A stretch of DNA of 22,702 bases, taken from the IMG/VR virus record IMGVR_UViG_3300042397_000308, positions 1 through 22,702 of that record. One strand, written 5' to 3'. This DNA is from a virus. Shown here piece by piece: positions 6,464 to 13,446 of this stretch. Under the pieces are notes generated by a model. It did not search any database. It worked only from the letters and a program-made list of their open reading frames with translations, and was not told the origin of the DNA. Position numbers and translations under genes: made by a program. Each line of letters begins with the position of its first letter. Within the stretch, counting starts at the first letter, position 1.

Positions 6464-6696
6464 TGAATTTGAAAAAGAGGGTGGGGGGTCCGCTGAGAAA
6501 TTTGTAATCGACTGTGCATATCTCAGTACATATGTGGGGGAGGGGACTCCTAATTCTAAAAGGGGTCATGGGGGTCGTGTGACGCTAGGAATTTAAAAAT
6601 AACAGGGGGCGGGATCGTTTTCTGAGTAATCTAGACTGGTCTAGAAAGCGGGGGGTAGATAACAGATAACCTGCATTTAAAGCGTATATAAGGGGG
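6456..6696 (+). other. G-run-rich divergent control region
   Basis: This stretch between the leftward and rightward genes holds no gene. The plus strand carries G-runs at 6456-6460, 6479-6481, 6483-6488, 6536-6540, 6542-6545, 6562-6565, 6570-6574, 6605-6609, 6611-6613, 6650-6655 and 6692-6696, while the only long C-run is 6450-6455. Runs at 6536-6574 could form a long-loop G-quadruplex. A small inverted repeat, CATAT...ATATG, lies at 6517-6534. The strand bias and the divergent position suggest a regulatory or replication role, but no specific function can be shown. Confidence 0.5.
6626..6645 (+). repeat. Directional palindromic repeat, copy 1
   Basis: GTAATCTAGACTGGTCTAGA: 7-base arms TCTAGAC and GTCTAGA around TG, with the conserved GTAA on the left. 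It lies 64 bases upstream of the -35 of the rightward promoter at 6710. It is one of seven copies in the window. Confidence 0.9.
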
Positions 6697-6709: not shown

Positions 6710-6738
6710 TTGACAGTCCTAATAAACGGGAGTATAGT
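6710..6738 (+). promoter_or_regulatory. Strong sigma70-type promoter, rightward
   Basis: TTGACA at 6710-6715, a 17-base spacer and TATAGT at 6733-6738: a perfect -35 and a one-mismatch -10. It drives the 212-residue gene starting at 6784, leaving a leader of about 40 bases. It implies use of the host housekeeping RNA polymerase and suggests early expression. Confidence 0.88.
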
Positions 6739-6783: not shown

Positions 6784-7422
6784 ATGAAAAACGCACAATC
6801 AAACTCAATCGCTAACATCGCTAAGACCCTTGGCGTACCTAGTAAAGCGGGTAAGTCCCCATCAGTCCGCAAGGGTATCAATGCCAAAACTACCATCGGG
6901 GATAGTCTTATCCTGAAGCATACCCTTGGATTCGTTGAGGGTGTAGTAACGGCGGAATCAGGCCGCATTAAGATGACTGACAGCGCCAAGGCATTACATC
7001 TTGGCGGGGTGAAATTACTCAAGAGTTCCACCGCCGAGGGTAAAAAGGATAAGACCACCCAATTAGTCCGCAAGGCTTTCTTTGATGGCTTTGAAGGTAA
7101 GGTTTCCCCGACTGGTAAGGCATACGCTAAGGGCTACATCGACACCCAGTACCAAGTATTTTTCAACGCTGTAAATACGGGCAACCCTATTGAGGATTTA
7201 AACGCTAATCGTGCTAAAGCTAAAGCGGGTAAACCTGCCAAGGCGAATGACGATAACGCCAAAATGATCTCAGCCCTGAAAAATGTATGGGTGCTTTCAG
7301 GTGTTGCAACATCGGCGGTAGATTTTATTCAAGATAAACTTGATGACGGGTTCAGCCTGATCCAGTCTATCGAGGATTATTTACAGTCCGAGGGTATCGA
7401 GATCGCAAAAGATACTGAGTAA
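6784..7422 (+). CDS. Unknown 212-residue protein, first rightward gene
   Basis: The ATG is preceded by AAAGGA with a 7-base gap, and the gene has its own strong promoter and terminator, so it is a single-gene transcript expected to be highly expressed. The product is basic, with a Ser/Lys-rich N-terminus and a Lys/Ala-rich linker at about 138-155 (KAKAGKPAKAN). The middle contains GKAYAKGYIDTQYQVFFNAV, and the C-terminal part is helical (VDFIQDKLDDGFSLIQSIEDYL). There are no membrane segments and no motif I recognise. The stop codon TAA is itself part of copy 2 of the palindromic repeat. An abundant early DNA-binding or host-takeover protein is conceivable, but nothing in the sequence proves it. 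Confidence 0.85.
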   Translation: MKNAQSNSIANIAKTLGVPSKAGKSPSVRKGINAKTTIGDSLILKHTLGFVEGVVTAESGRIKMTDSAKALHLGGVKLLKSSTAEGKKDKTTQLVRKAFFDGFEGKVSPTGKAYAKGYIDTQYQVFFNAVNTGNPIEDLNANRAKAKAGKPAKANDDNAKMISALKNVWVLSGVATSAVDFIQDKLDDGFSLIQSIEDYLQSEGIEIAKDTE

Positions 7423-7438: not shown

Positions 7439-7464
7439 AACCCCGCTTCGGCGGGGTTTTTTTT
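7438..7464 (+). terminator. Rho-independent terminator
   Basis: CCCCGC-TTCG-GCGGGG (7441-7456) with a stable UUCG-type loop is followed by eight T (7457-7464). Upstream AAA extends the stem against the first T bases. It ends the transcript of the 212-residue gene. Confidence 0.95.
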
Positions 7465-7557
7465 CGCCCATTTTTTTCTGCGGAACTATCATAACTATCA
7501 TGCTCTACTAAGCGGGTAAGCCGTAGGCTAAGTTGTAAAGCCGTAATAAGCTGTTGT

Positions 7558-7849
7558 ATTTGCACAATCCTCCTATATTTGCACAATTATTCCAAAGCAC
7601 TTGGAAAATTCTCTAGCCCTTATAGCAGAAGGGTCGCAGGGGATTTTTTTTGTATTATTCCAAGAATAATAATAATAAAGAAAGTATAAATATATAGAGG
7701 TAATACATTTGTGTATGCTTGATTCTTTTCAAGGATTCGTTTGCCTGAAAAGCTGGAATAATTGGAATATTCTGGCAGAAGCCCTGTTTATAAGGGGGTA
7801 TTTTTCCAAAGTACCTCTAAAAATGCCGTATAGGAGGATTGTGCAATTA
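7558..7849. other. Origin-like block: iterated motifs and a long degenerate inverted repeat
   Basis: No credible gene lies between 7465 and 8009. ATTTGCACAAT occurs at 7558-7568 and 7577-7587, and a related ATTGTGCAAT at 7839-7848 is inverted. TTGCACAATCCTCCTATA (7560-7577) has a perfect 18-base inverted partner at 7829-7846. Two more blocks follow in the same order on both arms: ACTTGGAAAATT (7599-7610) against TTTTTCCAAAGT (7801-7812), and CCCTTATA (7617-7624) against TATAAGGG (7789-7796). The arms therefore span about 65 and 58 bases and face each other across an AT-rich core (7625-7788) containing AATAATAATAATAA and several ATTCCAA/TTGGAAT words. This pattern fits a replication origin or a two-sided operator. 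The structure is seen; the role is inferred. Confidence 0.5.
7789..7803 (+). repeat. TATAAGGGGGTATTT motif, copy 2
   Basis: Identical over 15 bases to 6687-6701. It forms the inner end of the right arm of the inverted repeat in the origin-like block; CCCTTATA at 7617-7624 is its shorter inverted partner in the left arm. Confidence 0.6.
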
Positions 7850-7896
7850 CACCAAGGTATGCAAAGCATTACATAGCATAGCCAAGCTGACACCCA

Positions 7897-8009: not shown

Positions 8010-8315
8010 ATGAGCAACACCAAAAGCATCAAACCCCGCCAAAAACTGTACGATGATGTCCTTGTCATCAGATTACCGCAACAAACCAAAGGGCAATTCG
8101 AACTCATAGCAACCAAGCAATTACGCAGACCAAGCGAAGTAGCCCGAGAAATAATCATGGCATATGTGAACCAATACCAACCAATGCTTCACTCACTCGG
8201 TCAAGCGCAAAACAAACCAAAACCTAGACCCGCACATGAGTATGACTTGCGCCTACCAACATCAGCACGACCACCAAGCCAGCAAGCAGACGAAAACTGG
8301 GATGACTGGGGCTAA
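8010..8315 (+). CDS. Ribbon-helix-helix DNA-binding protein (candidate repeat-binding regulator)
   Basis: I choose the ATG at 8010 (101 residues) because AAAGGAAA precedes it; an in-frame ATG 57 bases upstream has no ribosome binding site. Residues about 15-22 (DDVLVIRL) form the DNA-contacting strand. PQQTKGQFELIATKQL (about 23-38) is helix A, and RPSEVAREIIMAYVNQ (about 40-55) is helix B with the usual R-x-S-E-V-A-R-E-I turn. This is the Arc/CopG/ParD fold, which binds inverted or tandem half-sites as a dimer of dimers. The C-terminal 45 residues are Pro/Gln-rich and end in an acidic ENWDDWG. The gene lies between palindromic repeat copies 3 and 4, making it the best candidate for their binding protein; that link is inference. 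Confidence 0.8.
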   Translation: MSNTKSIKPRQKLYDDVLVIRLPQQTKGQFELIATKQLRRPSEVAREIIMAYVNQYQPMLHSLGQAQNKPKPRPAHEYDLRLPTSARPPSQQADENWDDWG

Positions 8316-8335: not shown

Positions 8336-8364
8336 TTGACAAACCTAGTATAAGGGCGTATAAT
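8336..8364 (+). promoter_or_regulatory. Perfect consensus sigma70 promoter
   Basis: TTGACA at 8336-8341, 17 bases, then TATAAT at 8359-8364: consensus at both hexamers and in spacing. The spacer contains TATAAGGGCGTAT (8349-8361), a variant of the motif at 6687 and 7789. The 11 bases TATAATGTAGT recur at the promoter at 9828. The nearest well-supported gene downstream starts only at 9055, so this promoter seems to make a long untranslated RNA. Confidence 0.92.
8349..8361 (+). repeat. TATAAGGG[G/C]GTAT motif, copy 3, inside the promoter spacer
   Basis: TATAAGGGCGTAT differs by one base from the copies at 6687 and 7789. A protein bound here would block the consensus promoter, so this is an operator-like position. 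Confidence 0.5.
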
Positions 8365-8397
8365 GTAGTTATAGCTGGAGTATTGGGTTTTAACTAT

Positions 8398-8417
8398 GTA
8401 ATCTAGACCTGTCTATT
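8398..8417 (+). repeat. Directional palindromic repeat, copy 4 (degenerate right arm)
   Basis: GTAATCTAGACCTGTCTATT. The left arm is intact and the right arm has two changes. It lies 34 bases after the -10 of the consensus promoter, within the first 50 transcribed bases. Confidence 0.85.
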
Positions 8418-8589
8418 TTGCACCAACACTTCACCCTCTTTAACAACATACTGTATTTGCGGGTACTGCATGGGATTACAACCATCTACCCGCAAAGCAA
8501 ACCGCATGGTCAATTAGACGAAGTATATAGTCGGGACTTGCGTAGCGTTGCGTTGATAATCATTGGGAGATTGGAGTTAAGTAAGCCAA

Positions 8590-8609
8590 GTAATCTAGAC
8601 CAGTCTAGA
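8590..8609 (+). repeat. Directional palindromic repeat, copy 5
   Basis: GTAATCTAGACCAGTCTAGA, identical to copy 2. It lies inside the gene-free transcribed stretch, 192 bases after copy 4. Confidence 0.92.
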
Positions 8610-9003
8610 AAACAAAGTAAACATAACCCCATGACTAATTGCCCTAGCTATACCATCGACCGCCCTCATACTGGCAAGCACACTACGCAACATGATGATT
8701 TCCTATACTAAGCCGATAAGTTCGGGTGCGAGGGGTAAAAGTCCCTAGCTAGGTTTATGTAAGTATCTTTGTAGGCGAGGTTTATCAGTGCATATTTTAG
8801 TGTGGCTGTACCTCCATCTTGGGCTTTACAACTATCACGCTCTCTCATACATACAAACAAAAAACTTAGTTTCGGTGGCATGACCCGTCAGTCATGCGTC
8901 AATATTTGGTAGGTACAAGCGGCTCTCTTTAGGGTGTTTCGGCTTGACCGCCTAGCGTAACTACCTACTCACTTAACGACAATAAATGGCTAAAAGATTC
9001 TGA

Positions 9004-9040
9004 GGATAGCTTAGCGATAGGCTATCCGATTGAGTTTTTT
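9004..9040 (+). terminator. Weak terminator or attenuator before the small-gene cluster
   Basis: GGATAGC (9004-9010) pairs with GCTATCC (9021-9027) over a 10-base loop, and a run of six T follows at 9035-9040. The 7-base gap between stem and T-run makes it weaker than the terminator at 7438. It may only partly stop transcription before the gene at 9055, whose ribosome binding site begins at 9043. Confidence 0.4.
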
Positions 9041-9054
9041 ACAAGGAGAAAACT

Positions 9055-9231
9055 ATGAAGGTGATTAAGCTGTATCGAAAGCCTGATAAGCCTGAGTTCT
9101 TTGTTTTGGTAAAGCAAGTAGGCAACGAGATTCTTTTGGTTTACCCCATTGATAAGCCCGAGCGTAAGCGAAGTGCTAGGTGGCTTGGATTAAACGAAGT
9201 TTATATTGACTGGATAAGGGAGTTTATATGA
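9055..9231 (+). CDS. 58-residue basic protein, function unknown
   Basis: The ATG follows AAGGAGAAAACT, an excellent ribosome binding site, and the frame ends with TGA overlapping the next ATG (ATGA). The product is rich in Lys, Arg and aromatic residues, starts MKVIKLYRKPDKPEFFVLV and looks like a small alpha/beta domain with two strands (FFVLVK, ILLVYPI) and a C-terminal helix (VYIDWIREFI). No known family is recognised. It is the first of four small genes coupled by short overlaps. Confidence 0.72.
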   Translation: MKVIKLYRKPDKPEFFVLVKQVGNEILLVYPIDKPERKRSARWLGLNEVYIDWIREFI

Positions 9232-9930: not shown

Positions 9931-10827
9931 ATGGAACAAACAAACTTAGCATTAAACGACGGCGAGTATGCCTATTCGAAGATCAGCAGTAGTGCCATGC
10001 TGATTGACCTGTCCCTGTCTGTATGGACTGGGCGTAAGTTAGATAAGCAAGTCAGCAACGAGATCGACTCAGCCAAGCGGACTAAATCTAGGGCAGGGAA
10101 CTATCACAAGAACTTGCTCGCTGGCTCTGAAAAATTAGCGGAGATCGGCAAGATCGCATCGGCGGTGCGTAACTGGTCTTATGGGCAGACATCGCCTTGG
10201 TCAGATACGGGTACTCGGTTACTTCCATCTACTTTATTCTTTGATTACAAAGCGAAGCTAACAGAATACGAGAAGATGTTTACACAAGCGGTTACAGATT
10301 TCTTAGCTGAATACGACACACTTGTAGCATCGTCAGCGTTTGCCCTCGGTGACCTGTTTAATCGTGAGGATTACCCACCAGTTGAGAAAGTTGCTCAGAA
10401 GTTTGGGTTTTTCTATACTTTCAGCCCTGTACCCGAAGTAGGCGATTTTCGTGTGGACATTGGCGAAGCGGGTATGGCGGAGTTGCGTGCCAATTACGAA
10501 GGTGCGTACAAGTCAAAGATTGAGAACGCTATGAGTGATGCGTGGACTAAGTTGCATGATGTGATGGGCAGTATCTCAGAACGCTTGGACTACTCAGACG
10601 ATGACACCAAAAAGATTTTTAGGGATAGCTTGGTGGATAACGCTGTGCAGTTGTGTGGCTTACTCAAACACTTGAACATCACTAACGATAACAAGATGGA
10701 GTATATGCGTAAGAAGTTGGAAGATCAGTTGCGTGGTATCTCAGCCCAAGACTTGCGTGAAGATGAAGGGCTACGCTTAGAAACAAAAAGGACTGTCGAT
10801 GAGATGCTCGGCAAGTTTGCATTTTGA
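9931..10827 (+). CDS. DUF3150-like partner protein of the MoxR-VWA module
   Basis: A 298-residue protein with TAAGGAGAATCAA before the ATG. It is mostly helical and charged, with no membrane segment or catalytic motif that I can see. It has an N-terminal strand-like region (MLIDLSLSVWTGRKLDKQVS) and a central DFLAEYDTLVASSAFALGDLFNREDYP segment. The shape, size and position before a MoxR-like ATPase and a VWA/metallopeptidase protein match the DUF3150 family as I know it from phages and bacteria, where it travels with these two. Family membership is recalled from context and general sequence character, so it is less sure than for the next genes. It is probably an adaptor or substrate for the ATPase module. 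Confidence 0.6.
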   Translation: MEQTNLALNDGEYAYSKISSSAMLIDLSLSVWTGRKLDKQVSNEIDSAKRTKSRAGNYHKNLLAGSEKLAEIGKIASAVRNWSYGQTSPWSDTGTRLLPSTLFFDYKAKLTEYEKMFTQAVTDFLAEYDTLVASSAFALGDLFNREDYPPVEKVAQKFGFFYTFSPVPEVGDFRVDIGEAGMAELRANYEGAYKSKIENAMSDAWTKLHDVMGSISERLDYSDDDTKKIFRDSLVDNAVQLCGLLKHLNITNDNKMEYMRKKLEDQLRGISAQDLREDEGLRLETKRTVDEMLGKFAF

Positions 10828-11033
10828 AAGCGGGAGATCAGGTAGTAGATAGGCATGGGAATGTAGGAGAAGTAAAACAAGTAGGGCATAACTTTTTTGA
10901 TATAGATGCAGTTCAGGTGCATTGGTATGCGTTTATGTCCGACTTTGAAGTACCGCACCCATTTGTAAAACAAAAGTATTTAACAGTAGTAACTAAAGAA
11001 GTAGCAGACATCATTAGAAGTAGCAAACCATAA
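10824..11033 (+). CDS. Small SH3-like protein, function unknown
   Basis: A 69-residue frame beginning at TTG (10824-10826) in a TTGA overlap with the stop of the previous gene. There is no in-frame ATG near the start and no clear ribosome binding site, so translation would depend on coupling. The start KAGDQVVDRHGNVGEVKQV is a typical small beta-barrel (SH3/KOW-like) turn pattern, followed by FFDIDAVQVHWYAF. The C-terminus has a short helix (VTKEVADIIRS). It could be a nucleic acid or protein adaptor within the ATPase module. Confidence 0.6.
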   Translation: MKAGDQVVDRHGNVGEVKQVGHNFFDIDAVQVHWYAFMSDFEVPHPFVKQKYLTVVTKEVADIIRSSKP

Positions 11034-11051
11034 CCACAAGGAGAAGTAACC

Positions 11052-12122
11052 ATGAATGTATTTAACTCTGTAACACTCAAACAATGTGCCGACTTGATCT
11101 GTGCAGTAGGCGATAAGGTAACTGTACTTGCACAAGGTGAGATGGGTATTGGCAAGTCATCTATGCTCAAGACATTGAAGGCTAAGTTCCCTGACCACTT
11201 TGCTTGCTATGTAGATATGACCACTAAAGATGTAGGTGACTTTGCTGTGCCTAAGATTCGCACCATAGATGGTGTTGAGGTGTGTAGCTTTATTCCCAAT
11301 GAGGAGTTTGGCTTTCACTTTGATAAGCCTGTCATCATGATGCTTGACGAGGTAGGTAAGTCTAGCAAGGCGGTATTCAACGCATCACTACGCATCATCT
11401 TAGAACGCAAGCTGGGTAACTATACTTTGCCTGAGGGTTCGATTGTGTTTGCTACAACTAACCTTGCACAAGAGGGTATCGGTGACATGATTCCACCCCA
11501 TGCCCGTAATCGTATGACTACGGTAAAAATATCTAAGCCTACCGCCGATGATTGGATTGATAACTATGCCTTGGACAACGGGATATTACCTGAGGTTATC
11601 CTTACAGTTAAAGAGTTCCCGCAAATGTTTGCATCGTTTGAGGACATCAAAGACCCCAAGGACAACGAGTATATCAATGACCCTCGCAGTCCAAGACCTG
11701 CCTTTGTAACGCATCGCAGTATGGAGAAGGCAAGCGACATTCTCAAAGCAACCAAGCATTTAGATGAGAACATCGTGGGTACTAGCTTAGTTGGCACAAT
11801 CGGCAAGCGTGCGACATACGACATGATGGCTATGGTCAAGCTGGCTAATGATATTCCTACATGGGACACGATCATGGCTAACCCCGACAAAGCACCAATC
11901 CCCGAGTCACCCGCCGCAGTTTGTATGTTGGTGTATTCAGCAGTTCAACGCATCGAGAAGGACAACATCAACAAGTGGGTCAAGTACATGGGTCGCTTAG
12001 CTAAGGAAGCACAAGGTCTGTTTGCAACATCGGTAATGCGTACAAGCAAAGCATCGACAGTTGGTACGAGTTCCGAGTTCATCAAATGGGCAACCACAAA
12101 CAATTACCTGTTCGCACAGTAA
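11052..12122 (+). CDS. MoxR-type AAA+ ATPase
   Basis: A 356-residue protein with AAGGAGAAGTAACC before the ATG. Walker A GEMGIGKS lies at 29-36, Walker B VIMMLDEV at 94-101, sensor 1 FATTNLA at 133-139, and an arginine-finger region ARNRM at 151-155. The insert before sensor 1 (LERKLGNYTLPEGS) is typical of the MoxR/AAA_5 group. The C-terminal 150 residues are helical. MoxR ATPases act as chaperones that remodel proteins together with VWA-domain partners that recognise the substrate; a VWA protein follows at 12265. The TAA stop lies inside palindromic repeat copy 7. Its target in this phage is unknown. Confidence 0.9.
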   Translation: MNVFNSVTLKQCADLICAVGDKVTVLAQGEMGIGKSSMLKTLKAKFPDHFACYVDMTTKDVGDFAVPKIRTIDGVEVCSFIPNEEFGFHFDKPVIMMLDEVGKSSKAVFNASLRIILERKLGNYTLPEGSIVFATTNLAQEGIGDMIPPHARNRMTTVKISKPTADDWIDNYALDNGILPEVILTVKEFPQMFASFEDIKDPKDNEYINDPRSPRPAFVTHRSMEKASDILKATKHLDENIVGTSLVGTIGKRATYDMMAMVKLANDIPTWDTIMANPDKAPIPESPAAVCMLVYSAVQRIEKDNINKWVKYMGRLAKEAQGLFATSVMRTSKASTVGTSSEFIKWATTNNYLFAQ

Positions 12123-12138
12123 TCTAGACAGGTCTAGA
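12119..12138 (+). repeat. Directional palindromic repeat, copy 7
   Basis: GTAATCTAGACAGGTCTAGA. TAA at 12120-12122 is the stop codon of the MoxR-type gene, and the repeat ends right before AAGGAGAAG, the ribosome binding site of the next small ORF. It is the rightmost full copy. Confidence 0.92.
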
Positions 12139-12149
12139 AAGGAGAAGCT

Positions 12150-12281
12150 ATGACTGAGGAAGAAATTATTATTGAACTAAGTAACCGCCTAGCAGATGAA
12201 CCTGATTACGACGAGAACTTAAAACCCAAACTAGAAAGATTACTTGAATTATTGGAGAGTATAAATGCTAACAACATCTAA
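12150..12281 (+). CDS. 43-residue acidic protein between the ATPase and VWA genes
   Basis: The ATG follows AAAGGAGAAGCT, one of the best ribosome binding sites in this region, and the frame of 43 residues ends 17 bases inside the next gene. The product is acidic and helical (MTEEEIIIELSNRL, then a Leu/Glu-rich LERLLELLESI stretch). It has no known family. It is separated from the ATPase only by palindromic repeat copy 7, so it may be a small regulator or partner of the module. Confidence 0.65.
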   Translation: MTEEEIIIELSNRLADEPDYDENLKPKLERLLELLESINANNI

Positions 12282-13446
12282 GAGTCTTACAGTAGAACAA
12301 CGCATTGAACGCAGTCATATCGAACTGATGAAACACCCGCATTTCGTTGCTTATAGTGGTGTGCTGATGGTCGGTAGCGTGAAGGTAGTTGAAGCTGATG
12401 AGTGTCCTACGGCGTACACCAATGGTCGTGATGTGGTGTATGGTCGTGACTTTGTAAATAAGCTGAACGATGCTGACTTGCGTGGTCTTATCTTGCATGA
12501 GAACAAGCACAAGATGTATCGCCACTTATCTACATGGCAACACTTACACAAGATCAATCCAAGCAAAGCGAACAAGGCTTGCGACTATGTGATTAACCTT
12601 GAGATTGACGATGAGGGTAAGCGTACTGGTGGGTTTGTATCTGTACCCAAGGGTGGCTTGCTTGACGAGCAGTATCGCAACCTTAACGCACAAGAAGTTT
12701 TCCACAAGTTGCAAGACGATGACGAGGATGGCGGTGGTAAGGGTAGTGGGCTAGATGAGCATGGATGGGAAGAAGCACAGGACATGACCGCCGAGGAAGC
12801 CGACAAGCTATCCAAGGAGATTGACCAAGCGATACGGCAGGGCGCAATCCTAGCGGGTAAGGTCAAGGGTACGCTAGACCGATGCTTCAATGACTTACTG
12901 TCCGCTAAGGTAGATTGGAAGGAAGCATTGCGTGAGTTCGTCAGTAGTGTGTGTAATGGCAAAGATGAATCTACATGGCGTAAGCCTAATCGTAGGTGGT
13001 TACAGCATGACATCTATATGCCTAGCACAGTCAGCGAAACGATGGGTCGTGTAGTGGTAGCCATAGATACTTCAGGCTCTATTGACGATCAAGCAGTCAA
13101 TCGTTTTCTGTCCGAGGTAGTAGCAATTATGGAGAATGTGAACCCTGAGATGGTCGATCTAATCTACTGGGGTAGTGATGTAGTAGGTCATGAGGTGTAT
13201 GGCATGGGTGATGCAGATAGGATGAAGGCATCTACCAAGCCTGTTGGCGGTGGTGGTACAAGCCCTAGTTGTATTACTACATATCTCAAAGATAAGAACA
13301 TTGTGCCTGAGTGTGCAATCGTGCTTACCGATGGGTATGTGGGTAGTGATTGGGGTGGGCATTGGACAAGCCCTGTCTTGTGGGCAATCGTTGGTGGGTG
13401 CAAGGATGTACCTACTGTTGGTTCAGCAATTTATGTGGAGGAGTAA
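12265..13446 (+). CDS. Metallopeptidase-like plus VWA-domain protein (DUF2201 type)
   Basis: A 393-residue protein with GGAGAG upstream of the ATG. The N-terminal domain has LRGLILHENKHKM with a zinc HExxH motif (His78, Glu79, His82), and ACDYVINLEID at about 105-115 is typical of the DUF2201 metallopeptidase-like domain. An acidic Gly-rich linker follows at about 150-165. The C-terminal domain is VWA-like: VVVAIDTSGSID at about 263-274 has the metal-site D-x-S-x-S, GGGGTS is at about 328-333, and IVLTDGYV at about 352-359 supplies the final Asp. With the MoxR ATPase it forms a classic ATPase-VWA pair. Whether the peptidase domain cleaves anything is unknown; all three HExxH residues are present. 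Confidence 0.88.
   Translation: MLTTSKSLTVEQRIERSHIELMKHPHFVAYSGVLMVGSVKVVEADECPTAYTNGRDVVYGRDFVNKLNDADLRGLILHENKHKMYRHLSTWQHLHKINPSKANKACDYVINLEIDDEGKRTGGFVSVPKGGLLDEQYRNLNAQEVFHKLQDDDEDGGGKGSGLDEHGWEEAQDMTAEEADKLSKEIDQAIRQGAILAGKVKGTLDRCFNDLLSAKVDWKEALREFVSSVCNGKDESTWRKPNRRWLQHDIYMPSTVSETMGRVVVAIDTSGSIDDQAVNRFLSEVVAIMENVNPEMVDLIYWGSDVVGHEVYGMGDADRMKASTKPVGGGGTSPSCITTYLKDKNIVPECAIVLTDGYVGSDWGGHWTSPVLWAIVGGCKDVPTVGSAIYVEE

Follow-up and report, generated by a model that had tools for sequence, protein, structure and literature searches.

A probable large structured noncoding RNA gene with a boxA-like sequence in a modular slot of uncultured phages

We analysed a linear virus record of 22.7 kb (22,702 nt, IMGVR_UViG_3300042397_000308; the window hereafter) and found, with good support from structure and conservation, that one of its genes specifies a large phage RNA that is structured and noncoding. 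The RNA, which we call type A, is about 670 nt long and was placed at 8371–9041 on the plus strand, with approximate ends. The slot in which it lies is modular, as relatives carry other large RNAs (types B and C) or none. Our preferred reading, to which we give roughly two chances in three, is that of a structured phage RNA gene in a modular slot, made with the assistance of boxA and Nus factors and acting in trans rather than being a mere leader. The first-pass annotation had already suggested a candidate large phage RNA here, and this suggestion was borne out by conservation above the level of synonymous sites, a lost reading frame, compensatory changes and a dedicated promoter. Taken as a whole, that earlier reading was right about the large RNA and wrong about its membership in GOLLD, and it overlooked the boxA, the operators, the RNAs that occupy this slot in related phages and the relatives without one.

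Setting of the RNA gene

The portal and terminase genes of the window are located on the minus strand, and an early-type operon runs on the plus strand from ~6.7 kb. Near its beginning, a near-perfect promoter TTGACA-17-TATAGT (6710–6738) precedes the gene at 6784, and a copy of the operator lies a short way upstream at 6630. The gene immediately 5′ of the RNA promoter encodes an Arc-like ribbon-helix-helix repressor (8010–8315, plus strand; PHROG 3431, E 7e-6), and genes that by eye look RHH-like occupy the corresponding position in relatives. The first gene 3′ of the RNA encodes 58 aa (9055–9231, plus strand) and has an AAGGAG ribosome-binding site directly ahead of it. Further on, a row at 9931–13446 encodes a DUF3150-like protein, a MoxR-like ATPase (PHROG 1297) and a VWA/metallopeptidase-like protein (DUF2201), which together form a phage-borne module of the AAA+/VWA chaperone type. 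The stretch up to the contig end (18084–22701) holds genes of the glycosyltransferase, methyltransferase and radical-SAM types, recognised by eye only. No tRNA genes were found in the window.

The sigma70 promoter TTGACA-17-TATAAT (8336–8364, plus strand) has no other perfect counterpart in the window, where a first-order model predicts 0.01 per strand, and it is kept in place in L001, L016, L004, L008, L013, L014 and L015. Both the perfect promoter and the long stretch without a credible gene behind it (~670 bases, next gene at 9055) had been pointed out in the first-pass annotation, and both hold. The longest plus-strand frame in the stretch is a TTG-initiated ORF of 97 aa (8418–8711), which had no Pfam family at the cut-off and no PHROG match. 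Its substitutions are spread evenly over the codon positions (7/6/6 against L016 and 13/11/11 against L001) and single-base indels in comparison with the relatives disrupt the frame, so we do not consider it a gene. A conserved protein frame had been named as one of the findings that would count against an RNA; the frame found is not conserved.

The palindrome TCTAGAC-NN-GTCTAGA or its near variants occur in 7 copies in the window (6630, 7423, 7901, 8402, 8594, 9881 and 12123), all between genes or at promoters and belonging to a direct-repeat family. One operator of this family, GTAATCTAGACCTGTCTATTT (8398–8418), lies just 3′ of the promoter, and another, TCTAGACCAGTCTAGA (8594–8609), falls inside the RNA gene, where a predicted arm has its tip (helix 9). 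The relatives have different palindromes at the corresponding places, e.g. CCCTATGATAGGG, CCGTAGCGTTACGG and TTTCATACCGTATGAAA, which looks as if the repressor specificity had diversified. The Arc-like protein is our candidate binder of these operators.

A second conserved noncoding element is situated at 7480–7870, 5′ of the Arc-like gene, and is partly conserved in L013. Its 26-nt inverted repeats (7552–7577 and 7829–7854) close a large hairpin with z of about −4.5 on either strand. The element displays almost no covariation and has no meaningful Rfam match, the hits falling mostly on the terminator at 7447–7470. A second RNA, a MITE-like element and an origin are all conceivable readings of it.

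Conservation and folding of the type A RNA

Besides the window, type A is present in two other IMG/VR contigs, L001 and L016, which were found both via the ATPase at 11052 and via RNA patterns; three different exact type A core patterns searched in IMG/VR matched only these two. Three core blocks on the plus strand are 96–100 % identical in the relatives: block 1 (8494–8560) has 67/67 identical positions in L016 and 66/67 in L001, block 2 (8626–8745) has 115/120 and 116/120 in the two relatives, and block 3 (8870–8905), which includes the stem 8878–8897, has 36/36 in both. At the four-fold-degenerate sites of two flanking genes, the window and L001 are less alike, with 68 % identity for DUF3150 and 75 % for the ATPase. 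Between the blocks the sequence diverged freely, with 8746–8869 at 44–46 % identity, and such fast-changing segments amid conserved ones make a recent transfer of the whole stretch unlikely. The first gene past the RNA also varies, encoding 58 aa in the window, 61 aa in L016 and a zinc finger in L001, and the RNA core is the same in all three despite these different neighbours.

The fold of the whole region is not exceptionally stable (z −1.25), so the case for a structured RNA rests on comparison. The three-sequence alignment retains 96.7 % of the pair cells, and in 11 pairs both partners changed and still pair. None of 500 shuffles reached the observed value and slid versions gave 1–3, in a comparison of three members with few events whose counted structure was predicted from the same three sequences. 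Eight of the 11 two-sided pairs fall in helices 13–15, which belong to the variable arm or to the base of that arm, and the pair 8778–8813 appears as A-U, U-A and C-G across the three sequences. This long arm (8730–8889, plus strand) has a nearly invariant base helix (8730–8753 with 8865–8889), made of two segments ~120–140 bases apart, which closes the variable part 8746–8869, where pairing is retained through two-sided changes. The invariant core helices carry no information on pairing. Covariation in homologues, which had been proposed as a check, was thus found in type A, and it was also found in types B and C.

Regarding the individual elements named in the earlier reading, the 10-pair hairpin TTTGCGGGTA/TACCCGCAAA (8456–8496, plus strand), located 3′ of the boxA, is real, with −20.5 kcal/mol and z −4.8 against shuffled sequence, and corresponds to helix 1 of the three-sequence structure. 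The stem 8878–8897 is also real (7 pairs, z −2.3). The stem of the 3′ domain (8909–8968, plus strand) exists but is weak when taken alone (z −0.3); it is GTAGGTA/TACCTAC in the window and GTGGGTA/TACCCAC in L001, an A-U to G-C change noticed by eye and left uncounted by the tool because of an alignment gap. We did not recognise the 13-base long-range pairing in that form, but conserved long-range helices are present at ~8539–8552 with 8679–8691 and in the arm base described above. The predicted RNA ends in an extended hairpin with a T-run (8992–9042, plus strand) and a GNRA loop, GCGA in the window and GCAA in L001. The hairpin itself (8994–9038) is clear, with z −4.7 against shuffled sequence, but it is not a textbook terminator, as the T-run lies several bases past the inner stem and is paired to an upstream A-run.

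The boxA-like sequence and the RNAs of relatives

A boxA-like sequence, CCTCTTTAACA (8435–8445, plus strand), agrees with the consensus GYTCTTTAANA (PMC5725501) in 10 of 11 positions, a level of match expected ~2 times per window by chance; L001 has the exact GTTCTTTAAAA. Using an alignment of the DUF3150 protein, we collected 80 loci of relatives, 28 of which have a promoter followed 34–121 nt on by a boxA-like sequence, with an RNA of type A, B or C behind it. About 25 distinct relatives display the same succession of promoter, palindromic operator, rrn-type boxA and a noncoding RNA of 350–870 bases. Sufficient upstream sequence was available for 30 RNA-bearing and 35 RNA-lacking loci. An exact boxA occurs in 24 of the former, of which 22 have it within the scanned 3.3 kb and two (L062 and L063) slightly beyond, and in 0 of the latter. 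The Fisher p of 1.5e-12 overstates independence, as the genomes are related and some of those lacking the RNA form a subgroup of their own. In RNA-lacking relatives such as L043, L048, L050 and L057, a similar promoter and operator are followed within ~110 nt by the ribosome-binding site and the first gene, with neither RNA nor exact boxA. From this joint presence and absence over the loci, boxA tracks the RNA and not the promoter or the operon. At the level of sequence, the association is the strongest clue we have to RNA production and hints at how it may proceed.

Types A and B have the promoter, a boxA-like sequence and the terminal hairpin in common, and their models match each other in the 3′ hairpin (nhmmer E 2e-4 to 6e-4). 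Type B is characterised by the core GTAGGCGTA...AGCAGTA, and the core together with the 3′ motif was found in 27 contigs, a count that includes L105 and L111, apparently chance coding matches. Its main helix is paired in 22 of 23 sequences via several base-pair types. For the exception, L103, the 3′ strand was wrongly assigned by the script, the sequence CTCTGCGG being present where expected, and in L128 the script chose an alternative register. Type C, with the core GAATAGGCGTNNNGTAGYCAGYC, occurs in 35 viral contigs and in a single contig from a MAG, and 12 helices covary across 34 sequences, compared with 1–4 in controls with shuffled rows and 0–2 in controls with permuted columns. Some type C members have a palindrome at an RNA hairpin tip where others have a plain short hairpin, and the window palindrome at 8594 has the same hairpin-tip arrangement. 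A type C RNA at 2281–2500 of L164 lies in a 9-kb contig from a pond, binned as an alphaproteobacterial MAG, for which the host assignment is unsafe.

The type B core helix NNRGRG-TAGGCGTA...AGCAGTA-CYCYNN (model R2) matched type B loci and gave no match in the window, L001 or L016, and the stem of the type C core (model R1) gave no match in the RNA of the window. Because the covariance models of B and C miss type A, we do not claim homology of type A with either of them beyond the promoter, boxA and 3′ hairpin. BLASTN of the window RNA and of the type B and C RNAs against 50,697 named phages returned no real match, and a search with the DUF3150 protein recovered phage relatives at only 27–29 % identity, so there is no cultured close relative. 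A literature search of incomplete coverage retrieved no description of type A, B or C RNAs.

Proposed production, role and known systems

In the mechanism we propose, transcription would start near 8371 from the consensus sigma70 promoter, and this promoter would be shut via the palindrome at 8402 by a repressor of the phage, in all likelihood the Arc-like protein. Once in the nascent RNA, boxA would be bound by host NusB-S10, together with NusA, NusG and SuhB, as on rRNA; the modified polymerase would be shielded from Rho where the transcript is not translated, and the RNA may be helped to fold, as at rRNA. A long untranslated folded phage RNA needs both protection from Rho and help with folding. 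The RNA would then fold into a multi-arm core ending in the strong hairpin 8992–9042, where the transcript may be cut or ended, which would free the RNA, or where transcription may continue into the small genes that begin at 9055. We infer from the motif that the polymerase would carry the host NusB/S10 complex, and the identity of the repressor, Nus loading and RNA release are putative in the same sense. The picture suggests that these related viruses borrow host rRNA machinery to make large RNAs.

By analogy with GOLLD and ROOL, our best guess for the role of the RNA is a trans-acting structural or regulatory one, and action in trans is favoured as the RNA is unchanged beside changing first genes. 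The same observation weighs on the possibility that the stretch is a long regulated 5′ leader, controlling the small genes from 9055 in cis like a riboswitch or through an attenuator at 8992–9042, with boxA antitermination through the leader. From the RNA up to 9055 we found no further promoter, the ribosome-binding site follows closely on the last hairpin, and in RNA-lacking relatives the promoter drives the first gene directly; a cis role is possible given that the slot precedes genes. However, a cis regulator should track its target, and here the core stays constant next to three different first genes; 350–870 nt is also large for a leader, and entire RNA types are exchanged. We therefore regard a leader as unlikely, though as an explanation to be taken seriously.

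A DNA element conserved for protein binding, whose operators, hairpins and promoter would serve regulation or replication, appears very improbable. The palindromic operators inside the stretch and the second conserved inverted-repeat region at 7480–7870 speak for it, but the operators account for only two 16-base stretches, one of them absent in L001, boxA acts as RNA, and the covariation by base-pair swaps extends over long arms in types A, B and C. We give still less credence to a decayed or undetected protein gene or the remnant of a mobile element. The 97-aa TTG frame is open and the stretch is present or absent among relatives, as such an origin would have it, but there is no family match above the cut-off, the core is more conserved than synonymous sites, and the even codon-position substitutions and frame-breaking indels point the other way.

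Returning to the trans-acting structured RNA as the preferred reading, we tentatively extend it, with the odds somewhat against us, to a slot that a widespread group of uncultured phages would reserve for large RNAs. At least three kinds, none recognisable from another, would be produced and folded in an rRNA-like manner behind boxA and would share one common job, perhaps by assembling from RNA alone as GOLLD and ROOL do. To our knowledge, very few large structured phage RNAs have been described, and none has a settled function. With type A the present analysis adds at least one family that Rfam lacks, and the number is probably three, spread over dozens of viral contigs. The link between rRNA-type boxA and the presence of an RNA provides a testable idea of how large phage RNAs are made, and the RNA-lacking relatives are natural controls for asking what the RNA does.

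Regarding known systems, repressors acting on multiple operators occur in phages, as with the 'stoperators' of cluster A mycobacteriophages and with P22 Arc. As in the window, one operator is repeated between genes and its specificity varies between phages; the window differs in having operators also inside the RNA gene, at hairpin tips, and in that its binder is only a candidate. In bacteria, boxA is found in the early transcribed region of rRNA leaders and in the suhB leader (PMC5725501). The slot resembles rRNA in the order of boxA and a long untranslated structured RNA, and differs from the rRNA and suhB leaders in that the transcript is a phage RNA and the boxA function is deduced from sequence.

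As for known RNA families, Rfam gave no match at the gathering score and only weak matches at E≤10, mostly terminator look-alikes. Direct searches of the window with the GOLLD covariance model RF02032 and with the ROOL model RF03087 were also negative; the latter gave no match in control genomes either, and it is the Rfam-wide searches that carry weight. A resemblance to group I introns (TATATAGTC) was dropped, as Rfam gave no match. The first-pass annotation had spoken of a GOLLD-type RNA, and as a statement of membership this fails on the Rfam results, the direct searches and the lack of a tRNA in the window; as an analogy between large structured phage RNA genes it is fair. GOLLD is a large structured phage RNA of unknown function (PMC12286853), comparable to the window RNA in size and in its less conserved 5′ part. 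The window RNA differs in its promoter-operator-boxA setting, in missing the covariance-model match and in having no tRNA nearby, a proximity that is usual for GOLLD in phages and prophages and not obligatory. GOLLD is also characterised by its homo-oligomeric RNA cage. ROOL is a structured noncoding RNA of ~660 nt from phages and prophages, also of unknown function (PMC12286853). Unlike ROOL, the window RNA has no RF03087 match, and the resemblance between the two is one in kind, both being structured, noncoding and of similar size.
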